Shown here piece after piece: positions 23,994 to 40,609 of a DNA stretch of 64,000 bases (position 1 is the stretch's first letter; every line of letters begins with the position of its first letter). The notes beneath the pieces are model-generated. The model saw only the letters and a list, made by a program, of their open reading frames with translations. It ran no database searches and had not been told where the DNA came from. The position numbers were made by a program, and so were the translations under genes. The DNA is from Paeniglutamicibacter quisquiliarum (GTDB taxonomy: Bacteria; Actinomycetota; Actinomycetes; Actinomycetales; Micrococcaceae). The stretch spans positions 62,001-126,000 of the forward strand of contig NZ_JAHRED010000003.1 in NCBI RefSeq assembly GCF_019084045.1, given 5' to 3'.

Positions 23994-24027
23994 CGCCTGC
24001 GCCCCCGGGGCATCAGGCGCGCAGGCG
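23994..24027. terminator. hairpin ending the catabolic operon
   Basis: CGCCTGCGC (23994-24002) pairs with GCGCAGGCG (24019-24027), with CCCC/GGGG in between. It starts right after the reductase stop and overlaps the end of the convergent small gene, so it may serve both. No T-run on either strand. Confidence 0.45.
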
Positions 24028-24297
24028 GAAGAACGAGCTTCCGACAAGCTCGTGCGCACCGGGGAGCAGTGCCACCAGCAGCTCGGGGTTGAACTGGACC
24101 TCGACGGGGCCGCGGCCCGCCAGTGCCGCCGAGAGCTTGTGCGGGGCGAGTGCCTCAAGCACCCACTCGTCGGGACCGGCCCCCACGTGCAGCAGGTCGG
24201 TCTCGGGGTCGAGGTCAAGCCAGGCAGTGATCCAGTCGCCGGTGAAGCGCGGCAGCGGATTCCTGGTGGGGGATGAGTCCAGGGTGGGGCTGTACAT
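24013..24297 (-). CDS. small protein of unknown function behind a SAM-IV-like leader
   Basis: A 94-residue acidic, non-membrane protein (MYSPTLDSSP ... ending SSFFRLRA) that I do not recognise. The ATG at 24297 is chosen because AAGGAC lies a reasonable distance upstream; the GTG at 24306 is too close to that site. Upstream on the same strand, at 24357-24452, lies the structured RNA element described separately, so its expression is probably controlled by a metabolite. A second small gene at 40205-40477 has the same kind of leader. The two proteins share only a faint C-terminal resemblance (LPGAHELVG against LPDATLVG). Coding is supported mainly by the leader and the start, so confidence is moderate. 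Confidence 0.55.
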   Translation of the reverse strand: MYSPTLDSSPTRNPLPRFTGDWITAWLDLDPETDLLHVGAGPDEWVLEALAPHKLSAALAGRGPVEVQFNPELLVALLPGAHELVGSSFFRLRA

Positions 24298-24356
24298 GAT
24301 GTGCACACGTCCTTGAAGATCGTTGTCCTTGCCCCTGCGTGCGGGATGCGCGCCAA

Positions 24357-24452
24357 GGCCGCTTCGTCATCCGAACCACCCGCCGTGCAACTATGGGGTT
24401 GGTGCCTGGTCAGTCGGAGCTTTGCGCAGTGCAACCAGATCTCGTGAAGCTG
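24357..24452 (-). promoter_or_regulatory. SAM-IV-like riboswitch variant, copy A
   Basis: Reading the minus strand, helix P1 is GCTTC with GAAGC, and the junction holds ACGAGA. A second helix CTGGT/ACCAG encloses the loop AAGCTCCGACT. The junction CACCAACCCC follows, then a third helix with GGGTGGTTCGG and ATGA leading back to P1. Four blocks of 11-15 bases are identical to the element at 40526-40609, while the second helix differs in sequence but still pairs, which is covariation. The order ACGAG, hairpin with AAGCyCCGrCT, CAACCC, GGTGG and CGGrTGA matches the SAM-IV riboswitch of Mycobacterium as I recall it. The recalled SAM-IV core GGCAACC is changed. It precedes the small gene starting at 24297. 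Confidence 0.6.
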
Positions 24453-24680
24453 TCTCCAGCCTACGGCGGGGCGGGGACGGTTGGCCACCGCGGGGCTGCG
24501 GGGAGCAACAAACCGTCATCTGCGACGGCCAGTGACCCCGCCCTCCCGAGGCGGGCCCGCAGCACCGCCGTCACCGGTTCCTGCTGGGTGATGCAGTGGA
24601 TGCCGCCGCCGCGGGCCAAGAGCCCGCTGGCATAGGCTGGAAGCGACACCCGCCAGCCCCCACACCCTGCGGAGGAACAC

Positions 24681-25736
24681 ATGCGCGCCACCCTGATCCA
24701 CGGACCGCGGGACATCCGCGTCGAGGACTGCCCCGAGCCGACCTTGCGTGCCGACACCGACGCCATCGTGCGCGTCAGCGCCGCCTGCGTCTGCGGTTCC
24801 GACCTCTGGCCGTACCGCGGCGTCAGCCCCACGCCCAGGCCCCGGCGCATCGGGCACGAATTCATCGGCCGCATTGAGGCGGTTGGCCCGAGGGTCTCGA
24901 CCCTGGCTGTGGGCGACTTCGTGGTGGCCCCGTGGGCCAACAGCTGCGGCACCTGCCCGCCGTGCCGCGACGGCGTGCAGGTCGCCTGCGAACACCGGGC
25001 GCACTGGGGCGGGGCCGACGAGAACGGCCTGCCCGTCGACGGCGGGCAGGGCGAGGCGGTGCGGGTCCCCAACGCCGACGGCACGCTCGTCGCTGTCCCC
25101 GGGGTGGCCGAGCCCGACGAAGCCCTGTCCAAGTCGCTGCTGGCACTCTCGGACGTCATGGGCACCGGGCACCACGCCGCGCTGGGTGCGCGGGTTGCGC
25201 CCGGCCGGAGTGTGGTCGTGGTCGGCGACGGGGCAGTGGGATTGTGCGGGGTGCTCGCCGCCAAGCGGCTGGGCGCCACGCGCATCATCGCCATGTCCCG
25301 GCACGCCGACCGTGCGGCCCTGGCCCGGGACTTCGGGGCCACCGATGTGGTCGCCGAGCGCGGGGCCGATGCCGCAGCCAAGGTGCGCGAACTGCTCGGG
25401 GGAGTGCTGGCGGACTCGGTGCTCGAATGCGTGGGCACCGCCGAGTCCATGGACCAGGCATTGCGCTGCACCCGACCCGGCGGGTCGCTGGGCTTTGTGG
25501 GCGTCCCGCACGGCGATGACCCGCTGCCGATCTCCGTGCTCTTCGCGAAGAACATCTCGGTGGCCGGAGGCGCGGCCAGCACCCGGGCGTACCTGCCCGA
25601 ACTGCTTGCCGACGTGTTGGCCGGCAGCATCAACCCGGGACTGGTCTTCGATGCCGTCATGGGGCTGGAGCAGGCGCCGGAGGCCTATGCGGCGATGGAC
25701 GAGCGGCGCGCGATCAAGGTCATGCTCGTGCCCTAG
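24681..25736 (+). CDS. zinc-dependent alcohol dehydrogenase family protein
   Basis: A 351-residue medium-chain dehydrogenase. The catalytic zinc site is seen in CVCGSDLW and GHEFIGR. The structural zinc loop has its four cysteines in CGTCPPCRDGVQVAC. The NAD(P)-binding Rossmann motif is VVGDGAVGLCGVLA. Genes annotated as threonine-like or sorbitol-like dehydrogenases in this family share this layout. GGAGG lies 8 bases before the ATG. There is no operon partner, so the substrate (an alcohol, polyol or aldehyde) is open. Confidence 0.9.
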   Translation: MRATLIHGPRDIRVEDCPEPTLRADTDAIVRVSAACVCGSDLWPYRGVSPTPRPRRIGHEFIGRIEAVGPRVSTLAVGDFVVAPWANSCGTCPPCRDGVQVACEHRAHWGGADENGLPVDGGQGEAVRVPNADGTLVAVPGVAEPDEALSKSLLALSDVMGTGHHAALGARVAPGRSVVVVGDGAVGLCGVLAAKRLGATRIIAMSRHADRAALARDFGATDVVAERGADAAAKVRELLGGVLADSVLECVGTAESMDQALRCTRPGGSLGFVGVPHGDDPLPISVLFAKNISVAGGAASTRAYLPELLADVLAGSINPGLVFDAVMGLEQAPEAYAAMDERRAIKVMLVP

Positions 25737-26046
25737 CGGCGTTCTTGCCGGCGGTGGCGCGACGCCCCGGGGGCTGAACTGCAGCCGGGCATTCCGGCGT
25801 CGTAGGTGCCCCTGCGCCGGGTCCGGCCCTTGCGCTATGCTCGTTGTGAAGCGGCGCGGCCGATCCGTTGACATTTTCTCCTGGGGCGACGTCGAGACGA
25901 AGGCAACTGGCGGGCAGTCGTCGAACGGCTTCGCAGCGACTTCCGGGCTATGGCTGCAACGCCGTTGTTGCAAGTCTCACGAATGCGAGTCTTGTCATCG
26001 TGATCATTTTGTGACATTTGCGGCGATGTACTAGCGTTGGGCATCG
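25737..26046. other. 310-base intergenic region without a gene
   Basis: Base composition becomes less GC-rich towards the right. An imperfect CAAGTCTC/GAGTCTTG pair with one mismatch lies near 25970-25998, and a TGTCA...TGACA pair near 25995-26016. This is the promoter region of the exopolysaccharide genes, but I cannot point to a convincing promoter. Confidence 0.3.
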
Positions 26047-26637
26047 ATGCCAGCTTTTACTGAAAATCATGTCCTAGGATCGTCCAGCGCCACCAATGAA
26101 CCCGTATTCGTCGACCCGTCGGGTAGGCGCCTGCAGCGGGCCAAAAAGGTCGGCGTCGTGGTCATCGGGCTGATGTTCCTGTATGTGCTGTTGCTCTTGT
26201 TCTCGTTCCTTGGCGGTTCCACGAACGCGGCACCGCACCTGCCCAAGTCGGCCAAGTCCGGGGCGGATTCGACGGTTTCGGAGCCAACGACAAGTCCGCG
26301 CCCGACCCCGTCGCCGACACCGACGCGTCAAGAGGCGGCAGCGGCGATGGCGACAGGCAGTGCCGAGACCACTACCGCAGCCGAGGCCACGACTGCGTCC
26401 GGGAGCACCGCCGCGACCAAGGGCACCGCGGCGGCCGAGACCACGGCAAGCACCGCGGATCCCAGCCCCACTGCCGCCACGCAGGCCGCGCCGAGCACCG
26501 ATTCCGCGAACGCCACCCCGAGCCCCAGCGAATCGGCGGCCCCCGCCACCGGCGAAACGGCCCCGGGCAAAAGTGCAACCGCTCCGGGCCGTGGCGAGAC
26601 CGGACCGGGCAAGCCGACCCGGCCGTCCCGCCCGTGA
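26047..26637 (+). CDS. single-pass membrane protein with long Ala/Thr/Pro/Ser-rich tail
   Basis: A 196-residue protein: a short cytoplasmic N-terminus with RRLQRAKK, one membrane helix (residues about 37-57, VVVIGLMFLYVLLLLFSFL) and an extracytoplasmic tail of low complexity rich in A, T, P and S. It has no enzyme motif. Its stop overlaps the GTG of the deacetylase/glycosyltransferase gene, so it is probably an accessory of that exopolysaccharide system, perhaps a wall spacer. The tail may be glycosylated, which is inference. Confidence 0.7.
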   Translation: MPAFTENHVLGSSSATNEPVFVDPSGRRLQRAKKVGVVVIGLMFLYVLLLLFSFLGGSTNAAPHLPKSAKSGADSTVSEPTTSPRPTPSPTPTRQEAAAAMATGSAETTTAAEATTASGSTAATKGTAAAETTASTADPSPTAATQAAPSTDSANATPSPSESAAPATGETAPGKSATAPGRGETGPGKPTRPSRP

Positions 26638-28796
26638 GCCCTGGACGCAGGTCCGCCCGCACCGGTGGCATCGGGGCGCACTGGATTCTGATGGTGACCG
26701 TCGTGCTGACGCTGGGACTGTCAATGGCGGTCCAGGGGTACATGAACCACCTCTCCGGCATCGACGAGCCCCGGGGGCAAGTGAGTCGTGCCACCGGAGG
26801 CGTCCCCGGGGCCGTTGCCGAGGGTGGCCCGGTTGTGGACCCCCGTGGCGACGGCGTCCGCACGGCGACCCCGTCCGACCACACCGTGGCCTTGACGTTC
26901 GACGATGGGCCGGACCCGGTATGGACGCCACGGATCCTGGATGTCCTGCGTGAACACGGGGTCCACGCCACCTTCTTCGTTACCGGATCCTCGGCGATCA
27001 AGCACCCCGAGATTGTCCGGCGCATGGCCGCCGAGGGCCATGAGATCGGCATCCAGACACTCACGCACACCGACCTGTCCGCTGCGCCCTCGTGGCGGCT
27101 CCAGCTCGAGACCAGGGGTGCCCAAAAGGTCGTGGCGGGGATCACGGGGAACTCGCCGTCCTTGCTGCGACCGCCGCACACGTCCACCAACGCAACCACC
27201 ACCGACGGCCAGTGGTCGGCCATGGACGCCGCCGCGGACCAGGGATTCCTCACGGTCCTCAATACCGTCAACAGCGGCGACTGGCGTCGCCCTGGCGCGG
27301 AGGTGATCACTGGCCTCTTGCTGCAGCCTGGGGTGCAGGGGCAGGTGGTCCTGATGCACGACGGTGGCGGAAACCGGTCCCAAACCGTCGACGCCCTGTC
27401 CGCCGCACTGGAGCGCCAGGAAAAATCCGGCATCAGCTTCACCTCGGTCGGTGACTCCATCGGCATTGACAGCACGCGGAAAGCGTCGGTCGGCGATGCG
27501 ATCCTGGGCAAGGCCTTCGTCTGGGGGATTCGGCTCACCGACGCCGTGGTCGCTGCAATCTCGTGGGGTCTCGTGGCCGCCGGGATCGTGACGCTCCTGC
27601 GGGCCGTGCTGGTGATGGTCGTCGCCGCAAGGCACAGCCGCGCCGTGCGCAAAAGCCGCGAGGCCGAGCGCAATCGCGGCTGGTTCGAACCGCCACTTCG
27701 CGTCGAGGTGACCGAACCGGTCAGCGTGATCGTCCCCGCATACAACGAATCGGCCGGGATCGAGGCGGCCGTGAGGTCGATCGCCGCGTCGACCCATCCG
27801 GTCCAGGTCATCGTGGTCGATGACGGATCCACGGACGGCACCGCCGACATCGTCGAGGCGCTGGAATTGCCGAACGTCCAGGTCATCCGCAAGGAGAACG
27901 GCGGGAAGCCCTCGGCACTGAACGCCGGCATCGCCGCGGCCCACCACGAACTGGTGGTGATGGTCGACGGCGACACCGTCTTCGAGCTCGACACCGTCCA
28001 CGTCCTTATCCAGCGCTTCGCCGATCCGCGGGTTGGCGCGATCTCGGGCAACACCAAGATCGCCAACCGCGGAGGCATCCTCGGCGCCTGGCAGCACATC
28101 GAATATGTCGTCGGGTTCAACCTTGACCTCCGCCTGTTCGACGTCGCCGAATGCATGCCCACGGTTCCCGGCGCGATCGGCGCTTTCCGCCGCGAGGCCC
28201 TGGCCCGGGTGGGCGGGGTCAGCCACGACACCCTGGCCGAGGACACCGACCTGACCATGGCCCTGTGCCGCGACGGCTGGCGGGTTGTGTACGAGGACGA
28301 CGCCCTGGCCTGGACCGAGGCCCCGGCCACCCTCGGTGCCCTGTGGAAGCAGCGCTACCGCTGGTGCTACGGAACGCTGCAGGCCATGTGGAAGCACCGC
28401 GGCGCCATTGCCCAGTCGGGGCCGGCGGGCAAGCTCGGGCGCAGGGGGATCGGCTATCTCTTTGTCTTCCAGGTGCTGCTGCCCCTGTTCGCGCCCATCG
28501 TCGACGTCTTCGCGATCTACGGACTGGTCTTCCTGGATCCCGTCCGTATCGCCGTGGTCTGGGGGATCTTCCTGCTGATCCAATTCATCATGGCTGCCTA
28601 CGCGTTCAGGCTCGACCGCGAGCCGATGCGCGCCCTGTGGACGCTCCCGCTCCAGCAGTTCGTCTACCGGCAGCTCATGTACCTGGTGGTGATCCAGTCG
28701 GTGGTCACCGCGCTGGCGGGCGTTCGCCTGCGCTGGCACCGGATGGAACGGTACGGCAGCCTGCGCGTCCCGGCGGCGACCCAGGAACGGTCCTAG
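26634..28796 (+). CDS. polysaccharide deacetylase-like/family 2 glycosyltransferase fusion
   Basis: A 720-residue membrane protein. After an N-terminal anchor (about residues 20-40) comes a NodB domain (85-270) with TFDDGP (Asp90 and Asp91), RPPHTSTN and LMHDGGG. Then come a membrane helix, a processive GT2 domain (360-600) and C-terminal helices. In the GT2 part VIVPAYNES, VDGD (Asp445, Asp447), AEDTDL and QRYRW (573-577) are intact, as in hyaluronan, chitin and PgaC-type synthases. In the NodB part the metal-binding HxxxH reads Q141-T-L-T-H145, so one ligand is lost, and the usual VDSxDW is VNSGDW. The synthase should work; the deacetylase may be weak or dead. It starts with GTG overlapping the preceding gene. 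Confidence 0.88.
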   Translation: MSPGRRSARTGGIGAHWILMVTVVLTLGLSMAVQGYMNHLSGIDEPRGQVSRATGGVPGAVAEGGPVVDPRGDGVRTATPSDHTVALTFDDGPDPVWTPRILDVLREHGVHATFFVTGSSAIKHPEIVRRMAAEGHEIGIQTLTHTDLSAAPSWRLQLETRGAQKVVAGITGNSPSLLRPPHTSTNATTTDGQWSAMDAAADQGFLTVLNTVNSGDWRRPGAEVITGLLLQPGVQGQVVLMHDGGGNRSQTVDALSAALERQEKSGISFTSVGDSIGIDSTRKASVGDAILGKAFVWGIRLTDAVVAAISWGLVAAGIVTLLRAVLVMVVAARHSRAVRKSREAERNRGWFEPPLRVEVTEPVSVIVPAYNESAGIEAAVRSIAASTHPVQVIVVDDGSTDGTADIVEALELPNVQVIRKENGGKPSALNAGIAAAHHELVVMVDGDTVFELDTVHVLIQRFADPRVGAISGNTKIANRGGILGAWQHIEYVVGFNLDLRLFDVAECMPTVPGAIGAFRREALARVGGVSHDTLAEDTDLTMALCRDGWRVVYEDDALAWTEAPATLGALWKQRYRWCYGTLQAMWKHRGAIAQSGPAGKLGRRGIGYLFVFQVLLPLFAPIVDVFAIYGLVFLDPVRIAVVWGIFLLIQFIMAAYAFRLDREPMRALWTLPLQQFVYRQLMYLVVIQSVVTALAGVRLRWHRMERYGSLRVPAATQERS

Positions 28797-28809
28797 GGCA
28801 ACGCTCTAC

Positions 28810-28832
28810 CCCGCCCGTAACCTAACGGCGGG
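28810..28832 (+). terminator. possible terminator of the exopolysaccharide genes
   Basis: CCCGCC at 28810-28815 pairs with GGCGGG at 28827-28832, 13 bases after the glycosyltransferase stop. No T-run follows. The 158 bases up to the next gene are unusually A/T-rich. Confidence 0.35.
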
Positions 28833-28990
28833 CAGTGGCCGTATATTTGTTTACGAGGCGCGTGGCAAATATCATACTTATTGGTTCTTTTGGCGATCGT
28901 TACACGAGGTCAATGACCTTCCGGGGCAAGACTCGGCGGGGAGCCAAGGATTTCGGCCGTTGGGCCGGTTGCACACCTCAAAGGAGCGGT

Positions 28991-30397
28991 ATGTCTGTCA
29001 GCACCCCCGCGTCGCACCATCTGGGCGACGAGACCAAGGATCCGTACGCGCTGGATCCCTCCTCGATCCAGGATCCGCCCACCCGTTGGCGGGACAGGTT
29101 CAAGTTCCTGGGCCCGGGCATGATCACCTCTGCCGCCGTCGTCGGATCCGGCGAGCTGCTCACGGCCACGACCCTCGGCGCCAAGGCCGGCTTCATGCTG
29201 CTGTGGCTGGTGCTGGCCTCCACCTTCATCAAGGTGTGGGTGCAGGTCGAACTGGGCCGCTGGTCCATCTCCACCGGCAAGGTCGCGGTGACCGGCTACG
29301 ACGAGGTCCCGCCGCGGATCGGCAAGCGCGGCTGGATGGCCTGGCTCATCCTGCTGATGTTCGTGCAGTTCCTGACCAGCCAGGCCGGCGTCATCACCGC
29401 CTCGGCCTTCGCCTTCTCCTCGCTGATGCCCTTCGGGCCCGACCCGTACTCGTTCATGTCGATCGGGATCTGGGTGGCCATCCTGGTGGTCATCGCCATC
29501 GCGATCCACCTGGGCAACAAGTACGTCGTGGTCGAGGGCATCTCCACGGTGTTGGTCTTCCTGGTGACGATCTTCGCCGTGGTGATGGTCTTCGCCATCC
29601 AGGGCACCGAATTCAGCTGGAACGCCGGGGACCTGGCCGACGGCATGCGCTTCCAGATCGCCCTGGGCTCCATGGGTGTGGCCCTGTCCATGTTCGGCCT
29701 CACCGGCGTGGGCGCCGGGGAAATCACCGCGTACACCTACTGGTGCGTGGAAAAGGGCTACGCGTCCTGGACCGGCCCGAACGACGGCTCCGAGGCCTGG
29801 GTCAAGCGCGCCCGCGGCTGGATCTCCGTGATGAAGCTCGACGCCTGGGTCTCCTGGGTCGTCTACACCGTGTCCACCGCCGCCCTGTACATGCTCGGCG
29901 CCGCGGTGCTGCACCCGCAGGGCCTGGAGCCCAAGGGGGACGAGGTCATGACCACGATCTCCTCCATCTTCTCCACGAACGTGGGCCAATGGGGAGCCGT
30001 GGTGTTCCTCGTCGGCGCCGGCATCGCGCTGTTCAAGACCATCATCGCCAACGTCCCCTCGCTGGGCCGCCAGGTCGGCAACACCCTCGCGGTCTTCGGC
30101 GCCTTCGACTGGAACAACCGCAAGCAGCGCGACCGCTGGATGCGCGTGATCATGATCGTGCTGCCCATCGTCTGGGGCCTGTTCGGCACCGTCGTCTCCT
30201 CGCCGCTGGCGCTGGTGATCTTCGCCGGAATCCTCAACGCCATCTTCCTGATGGGCGTCGCCGCGGCAACCATCTACCTCTCGCACAAGCAGACCGACCC
30301 GCGGGTCAAGGACGGCAAGGCCTTCACGGCAATGCTGATCCTCTCGGCCGCGGCCGTCTTCTTCGTCGGCGTCATGGGTCTGGTCAACACGTTCTAG
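28991..30397 (+). CDS. Nramp-family transporter lacking the metal-site motifs
   Basis: A 468-residue integral membrane protein with about 11 helices and Nramp-like topology. The ATG at 28991 follows AAGGAG; the longer frame from 28835 adds non-family sequence. True Nramp metal importers have DPGN in helix 1 and MPHN in helix 6. Here helix 1 reads GPGMITSAAVVGSGEL (Gly52-Ser53-Gly54-Glu55) and helix 6 reads GLTGVGAGEITAYTYW, so both metal motifs are replaced. The pair of GxGE motifs is symmetrical. It is followed 34 bases later by an idonate-dehydrogenase-like gene. A role in sugar-acid or other organic import is therefore more plausible than manganese import, but this is inference. Confidence 0.8.
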   Translation: MSVSTPASHHLGDETKDPYALDPSSIQDPPTRWRDRFKFLGPGMITSAAVVGSGELLTATTLGAKAGFMLLWLVLASTFIKVWVQVELGRWSISTGKVAVTGYDEVPPRIGKRGWMAWLILLMFVQFLTSQAGVITASAFAFSSLMPFGPDPYSFMSIGIWVAILVVIAIAIHLGNKYVVVEGISTVLVFLVTIFAVVMVFAIQGTEFSWNAGDLADGMRFQIALGSMGVALSMFGLTGVGAGEITAYTYWCVEKGYASWTGPNDGSEAWVKRARGWISVMKLDAWVSWVVYTVSTAALYMLGAAVLHPQGLEPKGDEVMTTISSIFSTNVGQWGAVVFLVGAGIALFKTIIANVPSLGRQVGNTLAVFGAFDWNNRKQRDRWMRVIMIVLPIVWGLFGTVVSSPLALVIFAGILNAIFLMGVAAATIYLSHKQTDPRVKDGKAFTAMLILSAAAVFFVGVMGLVNTF

Positions 30398-30431
30398 GGC
30401 GCCACCCGGCGCAGTAAAGGAGTACCCTCGC

Positions 30432-31475
30432 ATGCAGGCAGTTGTGGTGCACGGCAAGGACGACCTGAGGGTCGAGGAGATCGCGGACCCCGTCTGCGGC
30501 GACAGCGCGGTCCTGGTGGCCATGGAGTGGGGCGGGATCTGCGGTTCGGACATCGCCTACTGGAAGACGGGGGCCTCGGGCACCGCGGTGCTCTCCGCGC
30601 CCCTGGTGCTGGGCCACGAGGTCTCCGGCACCGTGGCGCAGATCGGCGCCGGGGCCGCCGCGTCGCTGGCGGCACGCGGGATCCGGGTCGGCACCCCGGT
30701 GACGATCCACCCCGCGACGCTGGTCGGCGAGCACCAGGTGCCCGCGGAAACCGCGGACCGCACCAACCTGTGGCCCGAGGTCCGCTACTTCGGCTCCGCG
30801 GCATTCGAGCCCCACGAGCAGGGCGGCTTCAGCCGCTTCCGCGCGGTGCGCCCGGACCAGTTGCGCGTGGTCCCGGACGGGGTCTCGCTCAAGGCGGCGG
30901 CGCTGGCCGAACCCTTCGCCGTGGCGCTGCACGCTGTCTCCCGGGCCGGGGACGTGGCGGGGAAGACCGTGCTGGTCAACGGCGCCGGGCCGATCGGCGC
31001 GCTTGCCGTTGCCGCGGCCAAGGCCGCCGGCGCCGCACGCGTCATCGCCGCCGACCTCTCCGCCGCCGCCCTGGACATCGCCGGGCGGATGGGCGCGGAT
31101 GTGTGCGTGAACCCGGCCGAGGGGGGCGTGCTGCCCACCGACGTCGATGTTGCCATCGAGGCCTCCGGCGCCCCGCGCGCCCTGGGCCCGGTGATCGCCG
31201 CGGTGCGCCGCGGCGGGGTCATGGTGCAGGTCGGGAACCTGCCCGCCGGGGAAATCCCCGCGGCCCTGGGCAACATCGTGACCCGCGAGATCGACTACCG
31301 CGGCTCCTACCGCTTCGTCGAGGAGATCTCGGCGGCCCTGGATCTCATGGCCGGAGGCATCGACCTGTCGCCGCTGATGACCCACGAGGTGGTACTGGCG
31401 CAGGCGGTGGCCGGGTTCGAGCTGGCGGCGGACCGCTCCTCGGGCTCCTCGAAGGTCATGATTTTCCTGGGCTGA
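30432..31475 (+). CDS. L-idonate 5-dehydrogenase-like zinc-family dehydrogenase
   Basis: A 347-residue medium-chain dehydrogenase. It resembles E. coli IdnD in GGICGSD, LGHEV, RYFGSAAFEPHEQGGF, LAEPFAVALHA and the Rossmann motif GAGPIGALAV. The catalytic site is present (Cys37, His62, Glu63). However, the structural-zinc cysteines found in IdnD are absent: the region reads IHPATLVGEHQVPAE. AAGGAG precedes the ATG. IdnD interconverts L-idonate and 5-ketogluconate; this enzyme may act on a related sugar acid or polyol. It forms an operon with the Nramp-like transporter. Confidence 0.82.
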   Translation: MQAVVVHGKDDLRVEEIADPVCGDSAVLVAMEWGGICGSDIAYWKTGASGTAVLSAPLVLGHEVSGTVAQIGAGAAASLAARGIRVGTPVTIHPATLVGEHQVPAETADRTNLWPEVRYFGSAAFEPHEQGGFSRFRAVRPDQLRVVPDGVSLKAAALAEPFAVALHAVSRAGDVAGKTVLVNGAGPIGALAVAAAKAAGAARVIAADLSAAALDIAGRMGADVCVNPAEGGVLPTDVDVAIEASGAPRALGPVIAAVRRGGVMVQVGNLPAGEIPAALGNIVTREIDYRGSYRFVEEISAALDLMAGGIDLSPLMTHEVVLAQAVAGFELAADRSSGSSKVMIFLG

Positions 31476-31501
31476 TCCCTCCGGACCGATGCCCCCAAGG
31501 C

Positions 31502-31534
31502 AGTGGCCGCCCCCTTTTCGAGGGGGCGGCCACT
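31502..31534. terminator. bidirectional terminator between idonate dehydrogenase and helicase
   Basis: Perfect 13-bp arms (31502-31514 and 31522-31534) with a 7-base loop containing TTTT. It lies between converging genes and is followed by CTTTCTTC on the plus strand. Confidence 0.8.
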
Positions 31535-31553
31535 GCTTTCTTCACGCAGGTTC

Positions 31554-34500: not shown

Positions 34501-34886
34501 GGGGCGAGCAGCTGCTGCAGGGACTGCTGCCAGGCGGGGACCGCGACGGCGGTGTTGCGGTACACCACGTCCTTGGCGCGCAGGTGCATCGAGTTGGAGT
34601 AGATGAGCACCGCCGCCACGTGCCGGCACTTGGGTGCCTCGCCGCAGGGGCAGGTGGCGTCGTCGATGACGCGCTCGCCCTTTTTCACCGCCAGCGTGAT
34701 GTGCACGGCGCATGCGGGCTCCCCGTCCTCGGACACCGTCCCGGAGAGGATCTGGTGATCCGGATCCCACAGGAACTCGCTCAGCGCGGCGTCGGTGGCC
34801 AGCACCTTGCCGCGGGTGAAGGAGACACCGCCGACGACACGCAGGATTTCACGCGCATCGACCATGGGAAAAGCAGATTCGGTCAT
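31554..34886 (-). CDS. SNF2-family helicase with N-terminal SWIM zinc finger
   Basis: A 1110-residue protein. The SWIM motif has Cys79, Cys81, Cys87 and His89. A long middle region of unknown fold follows. The SNF2 ATPase occupies about residues 640-1100, with Walker A DDMGLGKT (Lys668), Walker B-like LILDEAQF and the C-terminal helicase motifs KAGGFGLNL and DRAHRIGQTR. Bacterial SNF2 proteins such as RapA remodel protein-DNA complexes; the SWIM-containing kind has an unproven role in repair or transcription. All ATPase motifs are intact. It stands alone and starts 104 bases from the divergent LOG gene. Confidence 0.9.
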   Translation of the reverse strand: MTESAFPMVDAREILRVVGGVSFTRGKVLATDAALSEFLWDPDHQILSGTVSEDGEPACAVHITLAVKKGERVIDDATCPCGEAPKCRHVAAVLIYSNSMHLRAKDVVYRNTAVAVPAWQQSLQQLLAPAPAAAKSLGGPNSKHPVLQMGLQFELQDTTLSAHQQWAPGSGVGQLKAASRRWRLGVRPVVRSADDRWARSNLRWNTISFKTFGLNLDVEQHRWFCQFVPLYRAKGELYFGEDNDWLYLDEYSSALLWELLAEAKSLGVALVGTRTYTRILLASPAQVSLGTRATEDGLALAPSVSLGGHGFILDAHSAAGSIGNHGVYVANEDHTEIFLGQVPGGLGHSELAMLEHPETLNVPEAETEEFFSRVFPRLARKLRVTSPDASVALPAVLPPKLVAKIRYGSRETVDVDWVFDYNGMVVDAADRDTLVETALESEVLQILNRHPAFESSVLGPRHFQGLEVIDFVRRVLPELAAVKDLVLQESGIRPEFHELTEAPELVITTVESDRRDWFDLGLLISIGDRQIPFADILRALIQGQTKLLMPDRSYFSLTDPLFDKLRALVSEAGGLRDMKDKEADISLTPYQFSMWEELEDLASRIEGPDAWVGALNSLVNLKTTAVADLPPTLNATLRPYQVEGFGWLATLWRNGLGGVLADDMGLGKTLQTLALILHAHQVWANPAAFEGISPQAGKRAPFLVVAPTSVVSNWKDEAARFAPSLRVVAVTDTESRAAASLAQLARDYDVVVTSYTLLRLDDDAYADIAWAGLILDEAQFVKNKATKAHHVARDMPARFKLAITGTPMENNLMELWSIFAIVSPGLFPSAVRFAENYQRPIERQGLDEPLVRLRRRIRPFMLRRTKDAVVTDLPPKQEQVLHVELGEEHRRVYDTHLQRERQKVLRLVDDMDKNRFTIFQSLTLLRMLSLDASLVDPEYAHVPSAKLDVLFEQLEDVLAEGHRALIFSQFTSFLKKAADRLDAAGVPYAYLDGSTRKRAEVIDSFKSGQAPVFLISLKAGGFGLNLTEADYCFLLDPWWNPAAESQAVDRAHRIGQTRNVMVYRMVAKNTIEEKVVALQDSKRQLISSVMDEGAGFGKVLNADDIRALLR

Positions 34887-34976
34887 CCTGCCATCGTTTC
34901 ACGTTCTGCACCCCCAGCACGAACCCGGATGGGTTGAAGTGCAACAAGTTTGCGCGCCAGGGACCCGAAAGTCGCC

Positions 34977-34982
34977 TAGTCT
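34977..34982 (+). promoter_or_regulatory. -10 box of a leaderless promoter for the LOG gene
   Basis: TAGTCT ends 8 bases before the ATG at 34991, so the message would begin at or very near the start codon; no ribosome-binding site is visible, which fits. Confidence 0.4.
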
Positions 34983-34990
34983 AGGGTGTC

Positions 34991-36196
34991 ATGAACAGCA
35001 CTCCGGCCCTGCACCCGCTCCCGCGCGTCATTGAGATTGCGTCGCTGGCCGATTTCGACAGGCATGCAGCCAATGCGCTTGCCCTCACCGACAGGCGCCT
35101 GGCCGCCTCCATGCACGGCTGGCACGTGCAGTCGGTTGACCTGCGCGCACGCGGCGCGGTGCTGGAAAAGCTGCGGTCGGCCGGCTCGGTGTTCATGGGG
35201 TGCGAGATGGAGGGCAAGACCGAGCGCCGCCTGCGCGGGGGCGGGGCGCTGGTCTTCCCCGAGATCCCCGGGCTGCCCTTCGACCCGTATCGCGGGGAGC
35301 TGTACACCGGGGCCGAGCTCTATGCGGGTCTGGATGCCGGGCCCTACGAATCGGTGCCCGACGCGCGGATCTATGCCTGGCTCTCGCACCGCTACGGGGC
35401 CGGGGCCCACGACGCGCTGAATGCCGCGTTGTCCTCCACGCTTCACGACCACGCCATCGGCTCCCGGCTGGACTCGCAGATCCGCGACGGCGCGCTGGCC
35501 CACGCCCCGTTGGTCGGTGTCATGGGCGGGCACGCCCAGCAACGCGGCAGCGCTGGCTACGAGCGGGCCGCGCGGCTTGGCCATGCCCTCTCCGGCGCGG
35601 GATTCATCGTGGCCACCGGGGGCGGGCCCGGGGCCATGGAGGCCGCGAACCTGGGTGCCTACCTGGGCGCGGGCAGCACCCAAAACCTGGTCGAGGCGCT
35701 GAAAATTCTGGAGACGGAGCCCGGCTTCGCCCCGTCGGTGACCAACTGGGCGCGCGCCGCCGCACGCGTGCGCGAACGCTGGCCCGCGGGCCTGCCGAAC
35801 CTGGGGATCCCCACCTGGTTCTACGGGCACGAGCCGCCGAACATGTTCGCCACCCACATTGCCAAGTTCTTTGCCAACGCCACCCGCGAATCCGTGCTGC
35901 TGGAAAAGTGTTCGGGCGGAGTGGTGTTCCTGCCCGGGGCCGCCGGGACGGTGCAGGAAATTTTCCAGGATGCCTGCGAAAACTACTACGGTGCCGCAGG
36001 CAGCATCAGCCCGATGGTGCTGGTCGGCGTCGAACACTGGACCAAGACGCTGCCCGCCTACCCGCTGCTTGCCGAGTTGGCCGCGGGCCGGGCGATGGAG
36101 GAGAAGATCTTCCTGGTCGACGATGCGGCCGAGGCGGTGCGCATCCTGGTGGAGCTGAACGACGGCTCGATCTCCGGCGTGCGGGGGCTTGCATGA
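34991..36196 (+). CDS. LOG-family Rossmann nucleotide-binding protein, long form
   Basis: A 401-residue protein. The C-terminal 250 residues form the LOG/lysine-decarboxylase-like fold, with GVMGGHAQQRGS, ATGGGPGAMEAANLG and the PGAAGTVQE motif, which is PGGxGTxxE with one Gly changed to Ala. LOG proteins split nucleoside monophosphates to the base and ribose phosphate. The N-terminal 150 residues look like a degenerate extra half (MEGKTERRLRGGGALVFPEIPGLPFDPYR), as in the longer nucleosidases of the PpnN kind. It overlaps the ROK kinase gene by four bases, suggesting a joint role in sugar or nucleotide turnover. Confidence 0.8.
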   Translation: MNSTPALHPLPRVIEIASLADFDRHAANALALTDRRLAASMHGWHVQSVDLRARGAVLEKLRSAGSVFMGCEMEGKTERRLRGGGALVFPEIPGLPFDPYRGELYTGAELYAGLDAGPYESVPDARIYAWLSHRYGAGAHDALNAALSSTLHDHAIGSRLDSQIRDGALAHAPLVGVMGGHAQQRGSAGYERAARLGHALSGAGFIVATGGGPGAMEAANLGAYLGAGSTQNLVEALKILETEPGFAPSVTNWARAAARVRERWPAGLPNLGIPTWFYGHEPPNMFATHIAKFFANATRESVLLEKCSGGVVFLPGAAGTVQEIFQDACENYYGAAGSISPMVLVGVEHWTKTLPAYPLLAELAAGRAMEEKIFLVDDAAEAVRILVELNDGSISGVRGLA

Positions 36197-37155
36197 GTGC
36201 CGCGGAACCTGCCATCGGCATCGACATCGGCGGCACCAAGATTGCCGCCGGACTGGTTGACGGCCACGGGAGGGTATCCCGGCGCACCAGGCATGCCACC
36301 GTCGGGCACGAGCCGGACGAGGTCCTGGACACCGTGGCCGCCCTGGTCGCCGAACTCGGCGCGGGCTATCCGGAGGCCGCGGTGGGCGTGGGGGCGGCCG
36401 GCTGGCTGGACCCGGCCGGGCGCACCGTGCTTTTCTCCCCGCACCTGGCGTGGCGCAACGAGCCGCTGCATGCGAAGCTCGAGGCAGCCACCGGCAGGCC
36501 CGTGCTGCTGAGCAACGACGCGGATGCCGCCGGCTGGGCCGAGTACCGTTTTGGTGCCGCCCGCGGACAACAGCATGTGGTCTGCCTGACCCTCGGCACT
36601 GGGATCGGCGGGTCGATTGTGATCGACGGGAAACTGCAGCGCGGAAGGTTCGGGGTCGCGGCCGAATTCGGCCACCAGATCATCGTGCCCGGCGGACAGC
36701 GCTGCGCCTGCGGCAACCGCGGATGCTGGGAACAGTACGCGTCGGGCAATGCGCTGGCACGCGAGGGAAGGAGCCTCATGGCAGTGCACTCGCCGGTGGC
36801 CCATGCACTTCGCGAGGCGGCAGGGAACGACCCCCGCCTGGTGACTGGTGAACTTGTCACCACCCTTGCCGCCGCCGGGGATCCGGCCTGCCGCGAGTTG
36901 CTCATCGAAGCCGGCCAATGGCTGGGCCGGGGGATGGCCAACCTGGCCGCGGTGCTGGATCCGGGCATCTTCGTCATCGGCGGCGGGCTGGGTGCCGCGG
37001 TTCCGTTGCTGGTGGAAACGGCCGAGGCGACGTATCGCGAAAACCTCAGTGGGCGGGGCTACCGGCCCTTTGCCCAGGTGGCCCGCGCAGAGCTTGGGCC
37101 GGATGCAGGGTTGGTGGGTGCCGCGGACCTGGCCCGCGGGGCGCTCGCCGGCTGA
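36193..37155 (+). CDS. ROK-family sugar kinase (glucokinase-like)
   Basis: A 320-residue kinase without a DNA-binding domain. It has the ATP-binding IGIDIGGTKIA, LSNDADAAGWAEY with the catalytic Asp, LTLGTGIGGS and the zinc motif CACGNRGCWEQ, all normal for ROK kinases. Glucose or an amino sugar is the likely substrate. The ATG overlaps the LOG stop (ATGA), so both are made together. Confidence 0.88.
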   Translation: MSAAEPAIGIDIGGTKIAAGLVDGHGRVSRRTRHATVGHEPDEVLDTVAALVAELGAGYPEAAVGVGAAGWLDPAGRTVLFSPHLAWRNEPLHAKLEAATGRPVLLSNDADAAGWAEYRFGAARGQQHVVCLTLGTGIGGSIVIDGKLQRGRFGVAAEFGHQIIVPGGQRCACGNRGCWEQYASGNALAREGRSLMAVHSPVAHALREAAGNDPRLVTGELVTTLAAAGDPACRELLIEAGQWLGRGMANLAAVLDPGIFVIGGGLGAAVPLLVETAEATYRENLSGRGYRPFAQVARAELGPDAGLVGAADLARGALAG

Positions 37156-37257
37156 TTCGTGGCCTCGCGCGTCCATGGGCGCAGGGCCGTTCCGGGGATG
37201 CGTGGGTGCATCCCCGGTGGCGTGGGGCGTGGGTTTTCCGCGCGTTGCGGAGGGCGG

Positions 37258-38661
37258 CTATTTTCGCTGAAGTGGCCGGCCCATGCCGGTCGTTGGCCGC
37301 GGTGGCGGAGCCGTGGAAGTGTAGCTGTGGCCGCTGGGGGTGGTGATCCTGAAGGAATGGCGGCCCCGTCCGGGCAATGGTTCCTCGTCCCAGCCGGGTG
37401 CTTCCTTGGTTTGGTTGCACGTACGACAGCGACCAGCGGCATTGAGCTCGGTGGTCTTGCCGTTGCGGTGCACCTGCACGACGTGGTCGAGTTCCTGGAT
37501 GCGGCCGTTGCAGTGCGGGGTGCGACAGCGTTGGTCGCGGAAGGTGATGAAGCGCTTGAGATTTCCGGCGAAGTTGCGGGCCGCCGAGTCCATGGCGACC
37601 AGCTTGCCGGTGTCCGGGGCGGCGTAGAGGCGCCGGCACCAGGTGTCCAGGGGGTGCTCCGGATCGCCAGCCACCAGTGACCTGGCCTTGGTGGCGCTGA
37701 TGTATCCGTGGCCCGGGATCAGCGCCGGTTCGTCGCCGTCGCCGGTGAGGCTCTCTGCGTCCATCATCAGCAGCAGCTCCACCGGCCGGGAACCGGTGGC
37801 CTTGGTGTCGGTAATCGCCTCGAAGACGGTGTCTGCCGCGACCTGCGCGTTGGTGCGGTCGTCCCCGGGCTTTCGGGGACGACCGGTTTCGCGGCTGAGG
37901 ACCTGCAGGATCGGAACGCCTTGGTCCAGGGGGAACTCGCCAATGATCCTCACGGTGTTTTCATTCACCCGGTAGCCGCTGGCGTATCGCTTTTCGGTGG
38001 CGTCCGCTTCCTCTTGCTCGGCAGTTTCCGGTTCGAGGACGAGAGCCCAGTAATTGACCATTTCACGCAGGGCCGCGGTCCCGGACTGGAAGCACGTGTG
38101 GGTGTCCTCCCACAACAGCTCATCGATCATTCTCCGGTTTTCGATCTTGAGGTTCCGGGTGCCGCTGACAACCACGCGTGCCTGGTCCCAGGTCATGATG
38201 CCCTGGCGCAGCCCCTGATGGGAGAGTGGCAGGTCTTCGGCGAGGATCCGGAAGTCGCTGGTGCGTTTGGACCCGCTGTGCGGGGACAGGTGCATCGCCA
38301 GGGCGACGTCCCCGCTGGATCCCCAGGCCGGGTTCTTCTCCCTGACGCCTGTGCACTGTCGATGGGCGATCAGGGAGTCCTGGTAGGCGACGCTGTGGTC
38401 GGCCTGTTTCGCCGTGGCGGCGCATTTCAAGGTTTCCAGTGCGCCGACGGCGGACACCGCCTCATGGACACCCGTCAGCACCGGGGCGTCGTTCACCGCG
38501 GCGGCCAGGGACAGGATTCCGTCTGTGCCGGTGCGGGCAAGATGCTCGGCAACCAGTGCGTCCATGTCCGCCCCGTCGGCCAGCAGTGCATCGTAGCCCA
38601 GGTCCTTTCCGGCACCAGAGGTGCCGGCGGAAGGGATGCCGCTCGATGACGTCGTTGCCAT
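37258..38661 (-). CDS. DUF222 protein with C-terminal HNH nuclease domain
   Basis: A 467-residue protein: a DUF222 (13E12 repeat-like) N-terminal domain and an HNH domain near the C-terminus. The HNH domain shows RDQRCRTPHC, then LDHVVQVHRNGKT, then CRTCNQTKE. The two CxxC pairs bind zinc and the Asp-His pair is catalytic. Such genes occur in many copies in actinobacterial genomes, and their role is unsettled. A 13-bp palindrome sits just upstream of the ATG at 38661. There is no sign of an intron or integrase near it. Confidence 0.85.
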   Translation of the reverse strand: MATTSSSGIPSAGTSGAGKDLGYDALLADGADMDALVAEHLARTGTDGILSLAAAVNDAPVLTGVHEAVSAVGALETLKCAATAKQADHSVAYQDSLIAHRQCTGVREKNPAWGSSGDVALAMHLSPHSGSKRTSDFRILAEDLPLSHQGLRQGIMTWDQARVVVSGTRNLKIENRRMIDELLWEDTHTCFQSGTAALREMVNYWALVLEPETAEQEEADATEKRYASGYRVNENTVRIIGEFPLDQGVPILQVLSRETGRPRKPGDDRTNAQVAADTVFEAITDTKATGSRPVELLLMMDAESLTGDGDEPALIPGHGYISATKARSLVAGDPEHPLDTWCRRLYAAPDTGKLVAMDSAARNFAGNLKRFITFRDQRCRTPHCNGRIQELDHVVQVHRNGKTTELNAAGRCRTCNQTKEAPGWDEEPLPGRGRHSFRITTPSGHSYTSTAPPPRPTTGMGRPLQRK

Positions 38662-38693
38662 GCTTCCATTATAGAACGGGTCGCCGACAATTG

Positions 38694-38727
38694 GAACATA
38701 GTTTCTTTAAAAATAGAAAATATGTTC
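38694..38727. promoter_or_regulatory. A/T-rich inverted repeat upstream of the DUF222/HNH gene
   Basis: Arms 38694-38706 and 38715-38727 pair over 13 bases with one mismatch and an 8-base A/T loop, 33 bases before the ATG. The stretch is far more A/T-rich than its surroundings. It could be an operator or a promoter overlapping a palindrome. The other bases of 38662-38859 show nothing else. Confidence 0.4.
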
Positions 38728-38859
38728 TACTGCTTGCGAGGGGCGCCTGACCTTACCTGCAAACAACATCCCGCGCGGGCGCCGGAAGCCAAAAGGGTGC
38801 CGCCGAATCCCGGATCCAGGGAAATGGCGGCACCCGGCGTTGAGTCCGTCGTGGGACCG

Positions 38860-39963
38860 TCAGGCCACGGAGCCGCCGAAGAGCAGGCCGAGGGCGTAGG
38901 TGACCGCCGCGGCGCCCAGGCCGATGGCCAGCTGGCGCAGGCCGCGCTTGGCCGGGGACGCGCCTGAAAGCAGGCCCACGATGCCGCCGGTTGCCAGCAG
39001 GGCCAGGCCGACCAATGCGGCGGAGAGCAGGATCGCCGGCGTGCCGCCCATGCCGAAGATGAACGGCAGGATCGGGATCACCGCACCGGAGGCAAAGAAG
39101 CAGAACGATGCGGAGGCGGCACCCATGGCGGAGCCGATTTCCTCGTGCTCGACCTTGGCGGATTCCTGCTCGAGCTCGGGATGCAGGGAGAGCGAGGCGT
39201 TGCAGTCGCAGGAGTAGATGCCCATGCGCTCGGCCGCACGGTGCGCCGCATCCTCGTCGCTCATGCCGCGGGCCTTGTAGACCAGCACCAGTTCGTTGGC
39301 ATCCAGGTCCAGGTCCGGGGCGGCGGAAAGGGTCACCTGGGTGGGCTTCGACGCCGAGAGCAGTTCGCGCTGCGACCGGACCGAGACGTATTCGCCGGCG
39401 GCCATCGACAGGGCGCCCGCGAGTAGGCCGGCGATGCCGGAGAAGAGCACCATGGAGGTGGCGACGCCGGTCGCTCCGATGCCCATGACCAGGGCCAGGT
39501 TGGACACCAGACCGTCGTTCGCGCCGAAGACGGCGGCACGGAAGTTGCCCGAGAGCCGGTTGCGGCCGCGGGTGGCCAGGCCGCGGACGACCTCTTCGTG
39601 GACGAGCTCGTCGGCGGCCATTTGGCGGCTGGCGTCGGTGTCCGCGGCGTAGGGGGAGTTTCCCTCGGCGCGCTGGGCCAGGGCCAGGACGAAGACCGAG
39701 CCGAAGTGGCGGGCCAGGAAACGGAGCATGGTGCGCCGGATCGAGGGCCGGGTCCGCTTCCCGGCGTGCTCGCCCAGCAGCGAGCGCCAGTGTTCCTCGT
39801 GGCGGGTTTCGGCGGCGGCAAGTCCCAGCAGGACCGCGCGTTCCTCGCCCTGGCGCTTGTTGGCAAGTTCGCGGTAGACCGCGCCCTCGGCGATTTCGTC
39901 GGCCAGGTACTGGCGCCAGCGTTTGATCTGGGCGGGAGTGGGGGTTGGCGCTGTTTGCGTCAT
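38860..39963 (-). CDS. ferritin-like/VIT1 (CCC1) family metal transporter
   Basis: A 367-residue protein in two parts. Residues about 10-150 form a ferritin-like domain with ExxH metal ligands (EERAVLLGLAAAETRHEEHW and HEEVVRG). Residues about 155-367 form the VIT1/CCC1 membrane domain (FGANDGLVSNLALVMG) with five helices. The eukaryotic family moves iron or manganese into vacuoles; bacterial fusions such as MbfA export iron. The ATG at 39963 has GAGGATGAGAG upstream; the frame from 40062 is longer but rejected. Monocistronic. Iron or manganese export under overload is a reasonable inference. Confidence 0.85.
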   Translation of the reverse strand: MTQTAPTPTPAQIKRWRQYLADEIAEGAVYRELANKRQGEERAVLLGLAAAETRHEEHWRSLLGEHAGKRTRPSIRRTMLRFLARHFGSVFVLALAQRAEGNSPYAADTDASRQMAADELVHEEVVRGLATRGRNRLSGNFRAAVFGANDGLVSNLALVMGIGATGVATSMVLFSGIAGLLAGALSMAAGEYVSVRSQRELLSASKPTQVTLSAAPDLDLDANELVLVYKARGMSDEDAAHRAAERMGIYSCDCNASLSLHPELEQESAKVEHEEIGSAMGAASASFCFFASGAVIPILPFIFGMGGTPAILLSAALVGLALLATGGIVGLLSGASPAKRGLRQLAIGLGAAAVTYALGLLFGGSVA

Positions 39964-40204
39964 GCTCTCATCCTCATGTGGGCGTTCACGGCCCCGCGGG
40001 ACCGTGTGATGGGGAGGCCCGGCATGAATGCTTTTTGGGTGCGTTGAGCCTCGGGCCACCAATGTGTGGACCGAAGGTCTCGTTCGCCTGGGGCCGGACG
40101 GGAATGCCCGTTGCCGCAGGTGGTTTGCCGGGTTACCGCGTTGTAACCAGTATGTCGACGCACCGCTTTCCCGCCGGGTGGGCGGGTTTGGGAACTACTC
40201 CCCT

Positions 40205-40477
40205 TCAACCCACGAGTGTAGCGTCCGGAAGGGCAAGGGAGAATTCGCTGAGACTAAAAACCAGGGCCTGGCCAGCGGGGTTGCCTGCCCGGGGGATCCG
40301 CACCGACAGCTGGCCGGCGGCAGGGTCCCATCGCGGGGAACCGGCGGCGTTGGCCAGCGCCGCGGCCAGCGCGGGGGCGTCGGCAACGTGGTAGCTGTGC
40401 CAGCAACCCGCGAGGCGCAGTTCAACGACCGCACGGTGGACATCGAGCAGGGGCAACACGAGGATGGAACGTGCCAT
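40205..40477 (-). CDS. small protein of unknown function behind the second SAM-IV-like leader
   Basis: A 90-residue protein, rich in Ala and Leu, with no membrane helix or known motif that I can recognise. It starts at the ATG 40477 (MARSILVLPL), 48 bases after the RNA element at 40526-40609. AAAGG lies somewhat far upstream and a short GGTC/GACC hairpin in between would bring it closer. Its C-terminus (SLALPDATLVG) is faintly like that of the 94-residue protein at 24013-24297. Coding potential is judged by start, composition and leader only. Confidence 0.5.
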   Translation of the reverse strand: MARSILVLPLLDVHRAVVELRLAGCWHSYHVADAPALAAALANAAGSPRWDPAAGQLSVRIPRAGNPAGQALVFSLSEFSLALPDATLVG

Positions 40478-40525
40478 GGCGGGGTCGAAGACCTTTCGTC
40501 AGCTCTTGCCGCGCCTTGTGGCCAC

Positions 40526-40609
40526 GGCCGCTTCTTCATCCGAACCACCCATGAACCTGGGGTTGGTGCGCGTCTTAGTCGGAGCTTGCCGACGCGTCTC
40601 GTGAAGCTG
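40526..40609 (-). promoter_or_regulatory. SAM-IV-like riboswitch variant, copy B
   Basis: Same architecture as copy A on the minus strand: P1 GCTTC/GAAGC, junction ACGAGA, second helix CGCGTC/GACGCG enclosing AAGCTCCGACT, junction CACCAACCCC, third helix with GGGTGGTTCGGATGA. The second helix differs completely from copy A's CTGGT/ACCAG yet stays paired. The tail GCGCGGCAAG that follows also resembles the 3' part of the recalled SAM-IV sequence. Copy B is 11 bases shorter. It precedes the small gene starting at 40477. Confidence 0.62.

Follow-up and report, generated by a model that had tools for sequence, protein, structure and literature searches.

We analysed a 64,000-nucleotide (nt) stretch of the Paeniglutamicibacter quisquiliarum genome (contig NZ_JAHRED010000003.1, positions 62,001 to 126,000; hereafter the window), which carries two SAM-IV riboswitches on its minus strand, copies A and B, each in front of a gene for a small protein. 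Both copies belong to a sub-type of SAM-IV recognised by CUUC in helix P1, and the genes behind them, A and B, belong to one small-protein superfamily. We consider it likely that copies A and B are working riboswitches of this sub-type, through which S-adenosylmethionine (SAM) represses translation of small superfamily proteins.

Identification of the two aptamers

Copies A and B are complete SAM-IV riboswitches, scoring above the Rfam cut-off over the full model. In a cmscan search against all of Rfam, copy A (24320..24449, minus strand) matched RF00634 at 46.1 bits and copy B (40497..40606, minus strand) at 65.9 bits, both over model positions 1-116; the gathering score of RF00634 is 38 bits. 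cmscan reports only the best family per clan, and the family named was RF00634, not RF01725.

The helices and pseudoknots (PK1 and PK2) were placed on the minus-strand sequence. In copy A, P1 lies at 24446-24449/24362-24365, PK1 at 24414-24418/24370-24374 and PK2 at 24388-24391/24322-24325. In copy B, P1 lies at 40603-40606/40534-40537, PK1 at 40579-40583/40539-40543 and a candidate PK2, with two G-U pairs, at 40553-40557/40501-40505. Copy A has an extra small hairpin between P2a and P2b (24423-24433, minus strand), and the cmscan alignment shows an 8-nt insertion between these helices. This hairpin, together with inserts near P5, is probably the reason why copy A scores below copy B.

These matches bear directly on an earlier, sequence-only reading of the window. 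The SAM-IV order of elements that it had recognised on the minus strand agrees with the RF00634 matches of both copies. The identical blocks that it described are exact (13, 11, 12 and 15 bases on the minus strands, plus one of 9), and P2a does differ in sequence while pairing in each copy (CTGGT/ACCAG versus CGCGTC/GACGCG). Its shortened 3' segment, on the other hand, is not real: the RF00634 matches run 37 nt (A) and 29 nt (B) beyond the 3' ends it had given, and in both copies this stretch holds P5 and the 3' strand of PK2. The 3' end appeared short because the spans ended before these elements. The same reading had proposed a comparison with the SAM clan of Rfam, in which a perfect match to an existing model would remove the novelty. 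Both copies do match RF00634, and with this match to an existing model the claim of a new aptamer class falls. The aptamer class is ordinary; what still stands is a coherent sub-type whose dedicated regulon is uncharacterised.

Five SAM-IV copies above the cut-off were found in the window's genome in a first genome search, and a third sub-type copy was found afterwards. The latter (C23:169167-169291, minus strand; locus L170, 1947-2071; 41.9 bits) lies about 43 kb outside the window and ends 14 nt before a matched family-C gene. A further candidate, L006 (22.1 bits), was dropped, being absent from the cmscan output at E up to 1.

Definition of the sub-type and covariation

The sub-type was defined on SAM-IV matches from 15 Paeniglutamicibacter genomes, 82 in all at E up to 0.001, including three that score below the cut-off. 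Sorted by sequence, these comprise 46 ordinary and 36 sub-type copies; letters were tabulated for 35 of the latter, omitting L083, which is cut by a contig end. Sub-type copies have CUUC/GAAG in P1, NCC/GGN in P3 (within the genus ACC/GGU, rarely GCC) and UCCGA/UCGGA in PK1. The 46 ordinary copies have GGUC/GACC, AAUC/GAUU or GAUC/GAUC in P1, GGC, CGC or AGC with its partner in P3, and CCCGG/CCGGG, CCUGG/CCAGG or UCUGG/CCAGA in PK1. The two groups separate on all three elements, and pairing is kept in both, with 418 of 420 pairs in the 35 sub-type copies and 551 of 552 in the ordinary ones. In this table the 5' strand of PK1 was chosen as the best-pairing 5-mer, and there are a few pattern artefacts (three TTTGG, one CTC and one GCA).

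The differences that define the class are thus compensated Watson-Crick pairs. The sequence-only reading had described an altered core. However, the change from GGC to ACC in P3 is compensated by GCC to GGU, and the C-A-A and U-G letters are kept. For the two window copies, which contain compensated pairs only, a core that has lost its contacts is rejected.

To assess covariation, we aligned 43 distinct sequences of the sub-type, taken from Paeniglutamicibacter as well as other genera, and compared them with 500 shuffles. Pairs are formed in 96.9% of the pair cells, 132 cells carry a change on each side, against a mean of 37.4 in the shuffles, and the covariation score reaches 0.315, compared with 0.146 after shuffling; none of the 500 shuffles reached any of these values. 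Sliding the partner by 1-3 columns lowers pairing to 36-48%. P1, P2a, P2b, P3 and PK1 are paired in 97.3-100% of cells per helix, PK1 pairs in all 43 sequences, and the base of P5 is paired in 99.2% of cells. The parts that covary are P2a, P2b, the outer P3 pair and the P5 base. The structured RNA proposed from covariation between the two copies is therefore upheld in the wider alignment. For PK2, a per-sequence test showed that complementarity of the P3 loop is higher with the 3' strand of the same sequence than with those taken from other sequences (11.24 versus a permuted mean of 9.74; standard deviation 0.16, maximum 10.14, 200 permutations, 146 of 151 distinct sequences).

Linkage to a superfamily of small proteins

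SAM-IV riboswitches typically control sulfur or methionine genes. In the window's genome, three ordinary copies precede genes for a Cys/Met pyridoxal-phosphate enzyme, a flavin reductase-like protein and an OsmC-like protein. Gene A (24013..24297, minus strand, ATG at 24297) encodes a 94-amino-acid (aa) protein of family A, or 97 aa from an alternative GTG start at 24306. Gene B (40205..40477, minus strand, ATG at 40477) encodes a 90-aa protein of family B. As the sequence-only reading had stated, both are small, non-methionine genes; neither protein matches a sulfur or methionine family.

Across the genus, an open reading frame (ORF) of family A, B or C follows 35 of the 36 sub-type copies and none of the 46 ordinary ones. 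The 36th copy (L083) is the one cut by a contig end, and a superfamily member stands behind every readable one. Beyond the genus, a protein profile finds family B in 68 of 245 Micrococcaceae genomes (13 of the 32 genera sampled), and SAM-IV lies within about 155 nt upstream in 34 of 35 family-B loci examined (of 53 matches). Family A occurs in 34 of 240 genomes. Outside the genus, 9 of the 16 family-A loci examined (of 25 matches) carry the sub-type: cmscan detected seven of them at E up to 0.1, of which three lie below the gathering score, and two (L150 and L156) were recognised by core letters only. Family C occurs in 16 of 240 genomes, and all four loci examined, one of them in the window's genome, have the sub-type.

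Families A, B and C form one superfamily, joined through intermediates. L292 is matched by all three profiles (A 20.7, B 12.7, C 21.6 bits), and L235 and L187 by both the A and B profiles (17.2-18.9 bits); among 2200 shuffled sequences, the highest scores were 8.6 (A), 7.6 (B) and 12.4 (C) bits. The superfamily proteins are about 85-200 aa long and occur in Arthrobacter-type bacteria and mycobacteria. Among the longer C-type members, many have in common an N-terminal C-x4-P-G-H-x2-H-W-I motif, a central W-x-H and a late Cys.

The superfamily has no credible Pfam or PDB relatives in the searches made. Pfam gave nothing for gene A at E up to 1, and for gene B a single AlkZ-like match (E 0.02, 15 bits) below the cut-off of 25.9 bits. 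Neither gene matched NCBIfam at E up to 1, and PADLOC gave no match for ten proteins tested, including gene A, at E up to 0.01. For 24 aligned members (alignment A7), Pfam returned two isolated matches, both weak (E 0.0094 and 0.048), and a PDB sequence search with this alignment gave no match at E up to 1. The same search with alignment A6 returned three long RecA chains over 21 positions (E 0.006-0.06). AlphaFold2 produced confident small alpha/beta models, with predicted local distance difference test scores of 88.1 (gene B) and 83.5 (a second model). Foldseek found no match at E of 0.001 or less against PDB (both models) or viral models (one model).

Wider distribution

A pattern scan of species genomes, near-duplicate species included, gave at least 127 sub-type matches in at least 118 loci. 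PK1 and much of P3 are prescribed by the scan pattern, which leaves P1 as the sole independent element; the P1 3' strand GAAG, which the pattern does not require, is present in 125 of the 127 matches listed. These are mostly from Micrococcaceae and mycobacteria, and include Arthrobacter, Paenarthrobacter, Glutamicibacter, Kocuria, Rothia, Paeniglutamicibacter, Mycobacterium and its relatives, Rhodococcus, Tomitella, Speluncibacter and one strain under the label Curtobacterium. When the pattern was applied to 296 genomes sampled evenly across the phylum, the window's own genome was the only one with a match. One contig titled Vibrio cholerae strain 35D (L280) bears the actinobacterial sub-type, and this assembly is probably contaminated or mislabelled.

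Downstream of the 127 matches listed, as classified with profiles partly built from the same matches, are 58 superfamily members, 25 short VapB-like proteins, 7 methionine-pathway genes and 37 other or unreadable cases. The openly licensed PMC papers that formed our literature search, as far as their searched text goes, contain no description of the sub-type or its regulon.

These data bear on the possibility that the sub-type arose from ordinary SAM-IV by neutral drift and that its proteins are a heterogeneous SAM-responsive set without common function. Nearly all copies examined do score as SAM-IV, and direct hhalign comparison of the A, B and C profiles is weak (probabilities 1.0, 5.9 and 1.4%), both of which fit drift. 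We nevertheless judge it improbable, given that GAAG recurs, unforced by the pattern, from Micrococcaceae to Mycobacterium and Rhodococcus, and that the intermediates L292, L235 and L187 are matched by several family profiles above the shuffle maxima.

The SAM pocket and the ligand

We take the direct SAM contacts to be those of SAM-I: C-A-A and U-G of P3, G-A after P1 and U-C of P1. The corresponding letters, C-A-A-C, U-G, G-A and U3-C4, are unchanged in the sub-type. The same sub-type also precedes methionine genes. Among the matches listed, a Cys_Met_Meta_PP gene stands behind it in Kocuria (L202, L217 and L272 by Pfam, L285 by BLAST cluster), and in Mycobacterium L252 such a gene lies behind a 144-aa ORF that follows the leader. 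A Meth_synt_2 gene (cobalamin-independent methionine synthase type) stands behind it in L181 (Pfam) and L207 (BLAST cluster). That methionine genes stand behind this sub-type is the strongest reason to think that it still senses SAM. Each of 12 named genomes that carry the sub-type also has at least one SAM-IV match of 99 bits or more; these matches lie far above the sub-type copies read and, judged by score, would be ordinary copies.

The sub-type could instead recognise another ligand, such as S-adenosylhomocysteine or another SAM derivative, which would explain a non-methionine regulon unlike that of ordinary copies in the same genus. In P1, the pair next to the conserved U-A pair is swapped class-wide (U-A for G-C or A-U), the outer P3 pairs near the pocket are likewise replaced class-wide, and some family-B leaders of other genera alter true pocket letters. 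All the same, the changes that define the class are Watson-Crick swaps that leave the C-A-A, U-G, G-A and U-C letters in place, and the sub-type stands before methionine-pathway genes in Kocuria, Arthrobacter and a Mycobacterium. We consider another ligand unlikely.

The family-B leaders with changed cores are of separate interest. L128 (825-936) and L131 (1296-1407), which are identical in sequence, have AA replaced by UU in the P3 internal loop; in L127, PK1 and the UGA segment are changed; and in L116, L120 and L132, UGA has become UGC. Judging from these letters, the six leaders are candidates for altered or lost ligand binding.

Proposed mode of control

Gene A has a Shine-Dalgarno-like AAGGA at 24310..24314 (minus strand), 7 nt after the 3' strand of PK2 and 12 nt before the ATG. 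Gene B has a similar AAAGG at 40492..40496 (minus strand), 4 nt after the candidate PK2 3' strand. Homologous leaders carry resembling stretches, and in the genus the chosen start codons lie 14-25 nt past the end of the RF00634 match. A simple scan found no terminator-like site between aptamer and start codon, and transcription attenuation was rejected on this ground. Two terminator-like sites were found near copy B, at 40518-40531 (plus strand) inside the aptamer and at 40273-40259 (minus strand) inside gene B.

From the closeness of the PK2 3' strand to the Shine-Dalgarno-like sequence, and from the lack of a terminator-like site in that scan, we infer that SAM most likely represses translation of these small proteins. 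Binding of SAM would stabilise P1, P3, PK1 and PK2. In the bound fold, with the PK2 3' strand 4-7 nt before the Shine-Dalgarno-like sequence, ribosome entry would be blocked, and the small protein would be made only at low SAM. The proteins are thus probably produced when the methyl donor runs low, which would give them a role in low-SAM physiology.

Several results weigh against this reading. In the pocket, the excerpted text of PMC6890682 places positions 2-4, 7-8, 63-65 and 77 of SAM-IV within 5 Å of SAM. With that numbering transferred by our own alignment, two of these positions differ from the ordinary copies: position 2 is U, not G or A, and position 65 is G, not C, each changed along with its pairing partner. 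Affinity or specificity could therefore have shifted. In the covariation analysis, P1 and PK1 are invariant within the sub-type, so their variation is seen only against ordinary copies. The number of pairs with a change on both sides (12, versus 9.5 in shuffles) is reached by 13 of 500 shuffles, and that of further pair types (33 versus 29.8) by 36 of 500. PK2 pairs in 84.7% of cells of the 43-sequence alignment, in which the A-type PK2 is misaligned, and that of copy B is weak, resting on its two G-U pairs. At 14 nt, the distance from AAAGG to the start codon of gene B is long. Linkage is also incomplete: one of the 35 family-B homologs outside the genus (L133) and 7 of the 16 family-A homologs (L157-L163, Glutamicibacter group) lack an upstream SAM-IV, and 37 of the 127 matches listed precede no superfamily, VapB-like or recognised methionine gene, although 5 of those 37 have less than 250 nt of readable sequence downstream.

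Neighbouring genes

Downstream of gene B lies an ORF with a VIT1 domain (38860..40062, minus strand; Pfam PF01988), a metal transporter gene whose position close to gene B is conserved in many genera of the Micrococcaceae. The gap is 18-60 nt in seven Glutamicibacter-group loci, as would suit a scheme in which ORF B is mainly a leader cistron and the transporter gene the true target. Elsewhere, however, the gap ranges from about 0.15 to 4 kb, no VIT1 match lies within flanks of about 1.5 kb at the family-A and family-C loci L134-L179, and family B itself, detected with a protein profile in 13 of the 32 genera sampled, has a confident structure model. We regard a leader cistron as very unlikely.

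The family-A homologs L157-L163 sit about 5-7 kb from a riboswitch-controlled family-B gene. In Arthrobacter L185 and L274, the sub-type leader lies about 200 nt before an SBP_bac_5 (family-5 solute-binding protein) gene. At two mycobacterial loci, the C-type gene is followed by an ADP-ribosylglycohydrolase gene (L241) or a metallophosphatase gene (L279).

Some sub-type leaders in Rothia, Kocuria and Arthrobacter precede a 60-78 aa protein and then a VapC-like ORF. Pfam PIN was found in two of five VapC-like ORFs tested (L238 and L187, not L188, L210 or L237). Paired sub-type leaders stand back to back, a few hundred bases apart, in L187, L219, L229, L238, L247 and L250 (Kocuria and Arthrobacter); one precedes a superfamily protein and the other, where readable, a VapB-like protein or VapC-like ORF. 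The superfamily genes of L229, L238 and L247 are each followed by a gene of about 1190 aa, whose product in L238 has RNase H-like and helicase domains.

As a highly speculative extension, the CUUC sub-type might act as an alarm for SAM collapse, holding back stress or defence modules that would be released when SAM falls sharply, for example through a phage SAM-degrading enzyme. Such modules could comprise the orphan small proteins, the VapBC-like pairs and the mycobacterial ADP-ribosylglycohydrolase/phosphatase operons, with ordinary copies tuning methionine synthesis. Phage SAMases are described as counter-defence in the excerpted text of PMC7877911.

Significance and comparison with known systems

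The ligand of a riboswitch is a direct clue to the function of the genes behind it. Here, one sub-type of a well-studied riboswitch marks an orphan superfamily; this would link the proteins to the supply of SAM and opens their function to testing. Should the ligand turn out to be another compound, the sub-type would represent a SAM-I/SAM-IV pocket re-tuned in nature; should the VapBC-like linkage be borne out, a toxin-antitoxin module would be under direct metabolite control.

The sub-type resembles VapBC modules in that some of its leaders elsewhere precede a short protein and a VapC-like ORF. It differs in that the window holds no such pair and the short protein of L188 has no Pfam or PADLOC match. 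With SAM-I/IV (RF01725), it has the SAM-binding core in common, which SAM-I/IV and SAM-IV share according to the excerpts of PMC6890682. These describe SAM-I/IV as lacking PK-1 and having P4 and an undivided P2, whereas PK1 is present here in 43 of 43 sequences; P4 was not searched for separately.

The closest system is SAM-IV itself (RF00634), with which copies A and B share P1, P2a, P2b, P3, P5, PK1, PK2 and the pocket letters C-A-A, U-G, G-A and U-C. They differ in the sub-type letters of P1, P3 and PK1, in the extra hairpin of copy A and in the non-methionine genes behind both copies. The aptamer class is known; the unusual part is a sub-type with its own orphan regulon.

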